NCBI RefSeq assembly: GCF_005080845.1
Contig: NZ_CP034858.1
Location: 558,001 to 622,000, forward strand
Length of the DNA: 64,000 bases
Direction of reading: 5' to 3'
Origin: Buchnera aphidicola (Rhopalosiphum padi)
Lineage (GTDB): Bacteria; Pseudomonadota; Gammaproteobacteria; Enterobacterales; Enterobacteriaceae
Part shown: positions 56,789-59,434 of the stretch, in pieces
How positions within the stretch are numbered: the stretch's first letter is position 1
Layout: each line of letters starts with the position of its first letter
Translations under genes and position numbers: made by a program
Notes under the pieces: generated by a model
The model's input: only the letters and a program-made list of their open reading frames with translations
What the model was told of the DNA's origin: nothing
Databases searched by the model: none

Positions 56789-57007
56789 TTATATCGTATC
56801 TTTCTTAATCATTTTAAAACGTTTTTTAAATCTTTCAACTCGTCCTCCAGTATCAATAATTCTTTGTTTTCCTGTATAAAATGGATGACATTTTGCACAT
56901 ATATCTAAATTTAGATTTAGATTAACGGTTGAAAAAATTTCAATTATATTTCCACATGAACAAGTAGCTGTTATTTGAGAATAAGCTGGGTGTATTTTTT
57001 TTTTCAT
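56789..57007 (-). CDS. rpmE: 50S ribosomal protein L31 (zinc-binding type)
   Basis: L31 bridges the subunits. From the ATG at 57005-57007 ([25 protein letters not shown] upstream) it is 72 residues (E. coli 70). The four zinc cysteines are kept, CSC near residue 16-18 and CAKC near 37-40, so it is the C+ type; [22 protein letters not shown] follows. The 27-base upstream extension is not homologous. Divergent from the short ftsN; cytR, between them in E. coli, is lost. Confidence 0.95.
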
Positions 57008-57109: not shown

Positions 57110-57372
57110 ATGTACAACGATAAAAATAAAATTAATTCGATGTATTTTAAAAAAAAAGAAAAAATAAAAAAAAGAACATAAATTTAAATAAATATCATAT
57201 TCTCATTGTTATTATAACAATAGTTCTTTTTTTTTCTTTTTTAAATATTTTTTTTAAAAAATCAAAAAATATAGAAAAAAAAATTTGTATAGATAAAAAA
57301 ATAAGTGATGATTTATTACCTCCTAAACCTAAAGAAAAATGGAAATATATTCACAAATTAGAAAATCTGTAG
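57110..57372 (+). CDS. ftsN: Minimal cell-division protein FtsN, frameshifted at a poly(A) tract
   Basis: Not visible as one frame. ATG 57110 opens MYNDKNKINSMYFKKK, a basic cytoplasmic tail; after A-runs at 57149-57157 (A9), 57159-57164 (A6) or 57166-57173 (A8), the next frame encodes a membrane helix (YHILIVIITIVLFFSFLNIFF) and LPPKPKEKWKYIHKLENL-stop. That last segment matches E. coli FtsN L75-E90 (LPPKPEERWRYIKELE), the essential E-segment, including W83, Y85 and L89. One extra A gives about 87 residues versus 319; the repeat-rich linker and SPOR domain are missing. Located between rpmE and hslV exactly as in E. coli. No clear ribosome site. Confidence 0.75.
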
Positions 57373-57560
57373 TTTTTAAAATTTTTTTAAAAATTTACTA
57401 AACCTAAATTTATTTATACATAAAAATATTTAATCTTATTGATGATTTTACTTAAATAATTTGTATAAATTAAAGTTAAAATTCTTCTTTTTTAAATATA
57501 AACTTTATTTTTTATATAATTAAAAAAAACACTAACACATTATTTTTAAGAGGTTTTCTT

Positions 57561-58091
57561 GTGACCACAATACTGAGTGTAAGATTGAAAAACAAAGTCG
57601 TAATCGGAGGTGATGGACAAGCAACTTTAGGCAATACTATTATGAAAAGTAATGTAAAAAAAATTAGAACACTTTATCATGAAAAAGTAATTGCTGGTTT
57701 TGCAGGCGGAACTGCAGATGCTTTCACTTTATTTGAAATGTTTGAAAAAAAATTAGCTATGTATCAAGGTCAATTACAACGTGCTGCTATCGAATTAGCA
57801 AAAGATTGGAGATCTGATAGAATGCTACGTAAATTAGAAGCTTTGTTAGCAGTCGCCGATAAAGATACTTCATTAATTATTACTGGAAATGGTGATGTAA
57901 TACAACCTGAAGATGATTTGATCGCAATAGGTTCTGGTGGTTCTTATGCTCAATCAGCAGCACGTGCATTGATTGATAATACTAAACTTAGTGCCAATGA
58001 AATCGTAGAAAAATCATTGAATATTGCGGCAAATATTTGTATCTATACTAATCATAGTTTTACTATAAAAGAACTATTTTCAGAAAAATAA
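57561..58091 (+). CDS. hslV: ATP-dependent protease subunit HslV
   Basis: Threonine protease of the HslVU machine. 176 residues as in E. coli. GTG start at 57561 yields [26 protein letters not shown]; removal of Met exposes catalytic Thr1. [20 protein letters not shown] and [13 protein letters not shown] are conserved. GAGG precedes the start. Eleven bases before hslU. In E. coli the operon is heat-shock regulated; I did not find a clear sigma-32 element upstream here. Confidence 0.97.
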
Positions 58092-58102
58092 GGATTATTT
58101 AT

Positions 58103-59434
58103 ATGTCTGAAATGACCCCTCCTCAAATTGTATCTGAACTTGACAAATTTATTATTGGTCAAGAAAAAGCAAAAAAAGCTGTTTCTATTGCACTAAGAAA
58201 TCGTTGGCGTAGAATGCAATTAAACAACGAACTACGTCATGAAATTACTCCTAAAAATATCTTAATGATTGGCCCCACTGGAGTAGGAAAAACAGAAATT
58301 GCTAGAAGATTAGCTAAATTAGCTGATTCACCTTTTATAAAAGTAGAAGCGACTAAATTTACTGAAGTTGGATATGTTGGAAAAGAAGTAGATTCTATTA
58401 TTCGAGATTTAACCGACGCTGCTATTAAAATGATTCGAGTAAAAAATATTGAAAAAAACAAACTTCGAGTTGAAGAAATAGTTGAAGAAAGAATATTAGA
58501 TATTCTTGTTCCCAGGCCAAAAAACAATTGGACAGAGAACGAAAAAAATGAAAGTCTATTAAACACATTACAAGTATTTCGAAAAAAATTAAGAGAAGGC
58601 GTTCTTAATGAAAAGGAAATTGAAATTAATGTCTTAGCTACTACTATGGGCGTAGAAATAATGGCACCTCCTGGTATGGAAGAATTAACAAGTCAATTAC
58701 AGTCTCTTTTTCAGAATTTAGGGGGTCATAAAAAAAATACAAGACGACTGAAAATAAAAGATGCAATTTTATTATTAAAAGAAGAAGAAGCAGCTAAATT
58801 AATAAATCAAGAAGAAATTAAAAAAGAAGCAATTAATGCAGTAGAACAGAATGGTATAGTATTTATTGATGAAATTGATAAAATATGTAAAAGAGGTGAC
58901 TCTTCTGGTCCAGATATTTCTCGAGAAGGTGTACAAAGAGATTTACTCCCATTAATTGAAGGTTGTACCGTATCAACTAAGTATGGAATGGTTAAGACAG
59001 ACCATATCTTATTTATTGCATCAGGTGCATTCCAAACATCAACACCGTCTGATTTAATTCCAGAATTACAAGGACGTCTTCCAATTAAAGTGGAATTACA
59101 AGCACTGACAATTAATGACTTTGAAAAAATTTTAACTGAACCAACTGCGTCTATTACTGCACAATATAAAGCCCTTATGCAAACAGAAGGTGTATGCATA
59201 AATTTTACAAAAGAAGGAATTCGAAATATTGCAGAAGCTGCTTGGAAAGTGAATGAATCTATGGAAAATATTGGAGCTCGTCGTTTACATACAATTTTAG
59301 AAAAACTTATGGAAGATATTTCTTTTAATGCTAGTGATAACAATGGTAAAACTATTGAAATTAATGCGGAATATGTTGGAAAACATTTAAATCAACTAAT
59401 ATCTAATGAAGATTTGAGCCGATTTATTTTATAA
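58103..59434 (+). CDS. hslU: ATP-dependent protease ATPase subunit HslU
   Basis: AAA+ unfoldase feeding HslV. 443 residues, the E. coli length. Walker [20 protein letters not shown] (about 55-73), pore motif region [15 protein letters not shown]-domain (about 110-245), Walker [14 protein letters not shown], arginine-finger region [12 protein letters not shown], and C-terminal DLSRFIL, whose last residues insert into HslV. AAGGA precedes the start. Confidence 0.97.

Follow-up and report, generated by a model that had tools for sequence, protein, structure and literature searches.

FtsN in Escherichia coli and in symbionts

The FtsN of Escherichia coli (TIGR02223, NF008179; PRK10927) is encoded before hslV and comprises a basic tail, one membrane helix and a segment of the form LPPKP...W.YI..L, the E segment, together with a long linker and a SPOR domain. 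Its tail also carries D5, an FtsA-binding motif that is DYV-like. The D5 motif is named in a passage of PMC9525312. In the E. coli model set out in a passage of PMC10390529, FtsN L75-P79 binds FtsI, and W83-L89 binds FtsL L86/A90, FtsI and FtsB L53. Engineered fragments holding the tail, helix and E segment (FtsN 1-119) or the E segment alone (Halo-FtsN-E 61-105) are described in passages of PMC5013485 and PMC9525312 as sufficient to support division or to join the active synthase.

Trimming of FtsN has also been described in nature. According to a passage of PMC5013485, Serratia symbiotica SCc and STs keep a very small part of ftsN, which its authors read as sufficient for division, and ftsN is called degraded in a Pantoea symbiont in an excerpt of PMC5091035. 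Buchnera, unlike Serratia symbiotica, is a group whose ftsN is printed as absent: a passage of PMC10591338 states that no FtsN homologue is encoded, and its Table 2 puts the share of Buchnera genomes with ftsN at 0%, both in a set of 38 and in a set of 15. No report of FtsN in Buchnera was found in the open PMC full-text literature. Here, a locus at 57110-57372 in a 64,000-nucleotide stretch of the genome of Buchnera aphidicola (Rhopalosiphum padi), called the window, is considered on the basis of its sequence to be quite probably a functional, SPOR-less remnant of ftsN. The remnant in Buchnera is what is new; trimmed FtsN was already known from Serratia symbiotica, as the passage of PMC5013485 relates.

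Layout of the locus

The candidate remnant lies on the forward strand between rpmE (56789..57007, reverse strand) and hslV (57561..58091, forward strand), the latter followed by hslU (58103..59434, forward strand), in a genome of 653,824 bases. This placement had been claimed in an earlier note on the window and is borne out by direct reading; the likening to the position of E. coli ftsN also holds, full FtsN standing likewise upstream of hslV in L037, L086 and L109. The split frame described in the same note, with a basic tail, one helix, an E segment and a stop, was confirmed at 57110-57372. In the window the remnant has no single intact reading frame, and two overlapping frames on the forward strand are found instead. 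The first (57110..57181) encodes the basic cytoplasmic tail MYNDKNKINSMYFKKKEKIKKRT, then a stop, and is one base off the core frame (57151..57372), which encodes the tail end KKRKNKKKNINLNK, the helix, a linker and the E segment before its stop. Since 263 nt separate the ATG at 57110 from the end of that stop, the tail and core frames differ by one base. The site of the frame break is a poly(A) stretch on the same strand (57149..57173), composed of A9 (57149-57157), A6 (57159-57164) and A8 (57166-57173).

The single membrane helix YHILIVIITIVLFFSFLNIFF (57193..57255, forward strand) has a mean Kyte-Doolittle hydropathy of 2.44 and, together with the basic tail, gives the remnant a bitopic layout. 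The E segment LPPKPKEKWKYIHKLENL (57316..57369, forward strand) matches about L75-92 of E. coli FtsN, and the TAG stop read from the sequence (57370..57372, forward strand) directly follows it, so the remnant does end just after this segment; the equation of the retained piece with E. coli FtsN residues 75-93 coincides with passages of PMC9525312 and PMC10390529. The remnant is thus like E. coli FtsN in lying before hslV and in the order of basic tail, helix and LPPKP...W.YI..L, and unlike it in lacking both the SPOR domain and the long linker, with no D5 visible. A DYV-like motif was not seen in any of the Buchnera tails, and KDY/KDF is kept in several trimmed FtsN of other genera. The engineered E. 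coli fragments differ from the remnant in extending further past the E segment, and they were tested in cells with FtsQ and full FtsL and FtsB. Between the ftsN stop and hslV (57373-57560), a scan found no terminator-like site, and the stretch is conserved poorly among strains.

Homology to FtsN

In hmmscan comparisons, the core matched NF008179 (FtsN) over profile positions 41-91 with E 5.5e-6 and 26.1 bits, the curated cut-off being 525, and TIGR02223 (FtsN) over profile positions 25-92 with E 3.5e-4 and 20.2 bits, the curated cut-off being 107.65; the next-best family had E 0.009. A Pfam search of the core matched no family, and nothing in the PDB matched the sequence of the L011 protein. 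In a six-frame search with TIGR02223, the single match in the window's genome falls at the 57110-57372 locus (E 1.7e-5), and 27 of the 36 Buchnera genomes in the genus sample have one match just upstream of hslV, a detection independent of the pattern by which the rows discussed below were collected; none of the 36 reaches the curated cut-off. Because 9 of 14 control genomes also match at the lax limit of this search (E up to 10), weak TIGR02223 scores alone mean little, and the weight of the FtsN identification rests on position and conservation. Chance resemblance to FtsN was rejected on the family matches to the core, the same locus across genomes and the shared segment.

A search for SPOR (PF05036, E up to 0.1) matched the E. 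coli control and none of the 36 genomes in the genus, two of which, G029 and G003, contain masked stretches. On this result, the idea that genomes of the genus hide a SPOR part at some other place was rejected. The A1 profile found no FtsN in genomes thought to be FtsN-less; its weak rows (E 0.009 and worse) sit elsewhere and were taken as noise.

Conservation across Buchnera and selection on the E segment

HslV is present in 35 of the 36 genomes; the exception, G029, gave no match to HslV, and the stretch concerned reads N there. Upstream of hslV, an E segment ending W.Y(I/V)..L..L-stop is found in 31 of the 35 hslV-bearing genomes. The stop stands at the same point in 31/31 relatives, the search pattern itself having required it there, and W, Y and L occupy the positions of W83, Y85 and L89 in 31/31 rows, an invariance partly built in, since the pattern required W, Y/H/F, L and L. 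One further locus (L015, G003) has its segment masked by N, with the tail visible before and KKLKNL-stop after, and the segment was not found in three frames at L021 (G024), L028 (G004) and L033 (G018), so that it is missing from 3 of the 34 readable genomes. It is also lacking at the Pemphigus Buchnera hslV locus, the only named Buchnera among the HslV loci of genome contigs and, at 85%, the best named match to the HslV of the window. The remnant is therefore dispensable in some Buchnera, and the earlier note, which had named loss of the segment in other strains as evidence against its reading, mostly came through: the great majority keep it. Nucleotide identity is 85% within the segment (ungapped) versus 43% over the 60 nt after the stop (gapped).

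Codon models were fitted to 29 of the 31 segments, picked by a pattern demanding W, Y/H/F, L and L, and left out L005 (shorter motif) and L013 (missed by the HslV pattern). On the HslV tree, the 18-codon segment gave omega 0.237 (lnL -518.40), compared with lnL -538.12 for omega 1 (best over four trial kappas), a fit in which, as IQ-TREE warned, the number of sites (18 codons) is small relative to the number of branches. When branch lengths were only scaled, omega was 0.259 (lnL -551.34 vs -570.16); HslV gave 0.050 for comparison. In the 13 strains with an open tail, omega was 0.296 (lnL -271.23 vs -277.79), and in the 16 with an interrupted tail 0.208 (lnL -340.96 vs -356.15), so selection persists there. 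Five interrupted strains, which are not a clade since L024 groups with L025 on that tree, gave 0.133 (lnL -143.70 vs -151.01). Changes at the first, second and third codon positions number 40/19/48 within the segment, against 170/146/163 for the preceding 30 codons. Neutral evolution is rejected by the codon models, and by these models the E segment is under purifying selection.

Trimmed FtsN in other genera

A family search with TIGR02223 (E up to 0.1) matched 298 of 392 genomes, 272 of them above the cut-off, at a limit at which 8 of 14 controls also match, and 26 smaller genomes were then searched again. Of these 26, 17 (13 genera) gave no SPOR match at the locus, 16 of the 17 being readable, and 8 retain a SPOR match there. 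The 16 readable SPOR-less frames end 3 to 88 residues past the Leu that corresponds to E. coli L89; 12 of them stop within 25 residues of it, and three of those within 4. In a Serratia symbiotica MAG (L086), FtsN ends LENR-stop, 3 residues after the L89 equivalent and at the same point as in Buchnera; the truncated ftsN of Serratia symbiotica is an open, annotated gene, whereas that of the window is split at poly(A). Judged by these frames, FtsN trimming recurs outside Buchnera.

Frame break and expression signals

Tail and core share one frame in 13 of the 31 relatives, where the pattern MY...NKINS.YFKKK starts an uninterrupted frame about 80-85 codons long; the tail is interrupted in 17, the window included, and unrecognisable in one (L005). 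The longest A-run of the tail measures 8-13 in the 13 open relatives versus 9-19 in the 17 interrupted ones. Sequencing error in long A-runs may be a source of the frame breaks. A passage of PMC3164680 attributes 10-70% of disrupted Buchnera genes to homopolymer indels and reports that slippage can correct one locus, and a passage of PMC5574713 reports that insertions in A and T runs increase with run length, no insertion case having restored a frame. Slippage is a possible source of a full-length product here, as far as the sequences indicate. Because tail and core stand in different frames, the minimal activator of about 87 residues proposed in the earlier note would need one slipped base or a non-canonical start; the proposal is otherwise supported by a segment that most strains keep and that is under selection. 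No obvious Shine-Dalgarno sequence was seen before the ATG in the 14 strains checked by eye, and promoter-like sites (9 found, 9.4 expected) were not above chance.

Two other division genes show similar breaks. In 19 of 35 Buchnera, the frame of ftsL breaks at a conserved poly(A) immediately ahead of EWRNLIIEKN, the downstream segment being still conserved; ftsL is one frame in 15 of 35, and the segment is missing in G004; in the window's genome, the split ftsL (L243) lies outside the window on the reverse strand (G000:C1:248804-248976; relatives L240-L254, L290-L294). The ftsB gene is split at poly(A) in the window's genome (L285, G000:C1:460400-461000), in G008 and in G016 (others: L288, L289). 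With ftsN, ftsL and ftsB all split at poly(A) in the window's genome, all three would need slippage.

These breaks invite the reading that the locus is a pseudogene in advanced decay, of which the E segment is the last readable part. The interrupted tails, the readable genomes that have lost the segment, the expression signals that were not found and the split ftsL and ftsB in the window's genome all agree with it. Decay is however unlikely in view of an omega well below 1, interrupted strains included, a stop and W, Y, L and L kept in 31/31 while the linker varies freely, the 13 single open frames and the recurrence of trimmed FtsN in other genera. A functional remnant might also be made in interrupted strains as a tail-less product from a non-canonical start in the core frame, which is open and selected in those strains. 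This too has a low probability, comparable to that of decay, since the core frame of the window contains no ATG, GTG or TTG upstream of the helix and the tail sequence itself is still recognisable in most strains.

Association with FtsW

All 47 FtsN-bearing genomes, 31 of them Buchnera and 16 not, have FtsW above the cut-off, as do 6 of the 20 that are without FtsN (Fisher p 4e-10, and 5e-6 outside the genus, both ignoring relatedness). This count covers 69 genomes, with G003 and G029 left out as well as 10 of the 26 re-searched genomes; its 17 FtsN-less genomes outside the genus are the small ones among those listed, a further 74 unmatched genomes being left out. Neither FtsW nor FtsN was found in G024, in which about 3.4 kb after rsmH (L295, G024:C1:218000-232000), the expected site of the ftsL-ftsI-mur-ftsW cluster, is without any 100-codon frame. 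Symbionts appear to lose the E segment mostly when FtsW goes.

The association also bears on the client of the remnant. An E fragment (Leu75-Gln93) is reported in a passage of PMC7939390 to bind and activate the bifunctional synthase PBP1b, which could be the main client in place of FtsWI. That reading is very improbable given FtsW alongside the segment in every FtsN-bearing genome counted and PBP1A/B in only 66% of surveyed Aphidinae Buchnera (a passage of PMC10591338). Least credible of all is a conserved RNA, either an hslV leader or a small RNA, suggested by the position directly upstream of hslV on the same strand, as variation is greatest at the third codon position and, where Leu and Arg are encoded, at the synonymous first one, the stretch from the stop to hslV is not conserved and other genera keep the same peptide with different codons.

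FtsL and FtsB, the receiving side

Buchnera FtsL aligns to residues 20-99 of the 121 of E. coli FtsL and ends there, and Buchnera FtsB aligns up to residue 62 of the 103 of E. coli FtsB (chain 6h9n_B). The AWI and CCD regions are placed at about 84-94 of FtsL and 55-59 of FtsB in passages of PMC8078798, PMC7733951 and PMC8998562; the truncated Buchnera proteins keep these regions and have dropped the tails beyond. FtsQ is given as absent from Buchnera in a passage of PMC10591338. Set against the E. coli contact model, what Buchnera retains corresponds to the portions described as making contact.

The position of E. coli FtsL E88 is K in 34 of 34 Buchnera carrying the segment, and FtsL E88K lessens FtsN dependence in E. 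coli according to a passage of PMC7733951. K is also present at this position in G215, with other residues elsewhere, so K88 may be mutational drift to AAA. FtsB position 56 in 34 Buchnera is E in 28, D in 4, N in one (G013) and R in one (G018); this R (L283) occurs in the sole FtsN-less Buchnera with a readable FtsB. A passage of PMC8998562 reports that, in E. coli, FtsN is bypassed when FtsB E56 is replaced by A, V, K or G.

Among the genomes with FtsW and without FtsN, G004 has lost the FtsL segment and its FtsB is decayed after the helix, and G018 retains the FtsL segment in another frame. For such genomes outside Buchnera, the prediction made beforehand was either a residue at FtsB 56 that is not acidic or loss of the receiving regions, and two of four agreed: G079 fits, with a tail relic without E segment, no FtsB found and the FtsL segment gone; G117 fits partly, with a K56 in FtsB whose frame then runs into stops; G084 and G119, which keep E56, contradict it. 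FtsN-bearing genomes were predicted to have E or D, and in the 14 of 16 that were read (aligned by eye; G215 had no FtsB match and G292 was left out), 12 have E and 2 have K (G101, G184). Because these two FtsN-bearing genomes also have K, a link between FtsB 56 and FtsN loss is only suggestive on the aligned sequences.

Proposed mechanism and significance

Taken as a functional remnant of ftsN, the locus would work as follows. Genome reduction would have removed the long linker and SPOR and left the basic tail, the helix, a variable linker and the E segment, which the helix would hold at the membrane. LPPKP would dock on FtsI and W.YI..L on FtsL, FtsI and FtsB, and docking would turn on an otherwise idle FtsWI, in line with the E. 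coli model. With no SPOR to bind denuded glycan, activation would lack the accumulation which that binding brings about. In the window strain, the full-length product would arise by one-base slippage in 57149-57173 or from a downstream non-canonical start. We infer this function from the features described above.

A broader proposal, held here only tentatively and with more doubt than belief, is that contact residues by themselves sustain the entire FtsN-to-FtsLB-to-FtsWI trigger in Buchnera and that FtsN-less lineages repeat E. coli suppressors. FtsN would then end after the E segment and FtsL and FtsB after their receiving regions, with FtsQ and the SPOR proteins gone; wild-type Buchnera FtsL would carry K88, which in E. 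coli lessens the need for FtsN; and loss of FtsN would lead to receiving regions being dropped (G004, G079) or to a basic FtsB 56 (G018, G117). If this is true, the suppressor screen done in E. coli would have been carried out a second time by evolution.

In the division field, it is debated where in FtsN the trigger lies and what SPOR and FtsQ contribute. Symbionts appear to be a natural deletion series on this question, in which the E segment is kept and the rest dropped, and they may be a source of minimal parts for reconstituting divisome activation. For Buchnera itself, the remnant would correct the statement printed in the cited passage of PMC10591338 that it has no FtsN, and hence another switch for septal synthesis.
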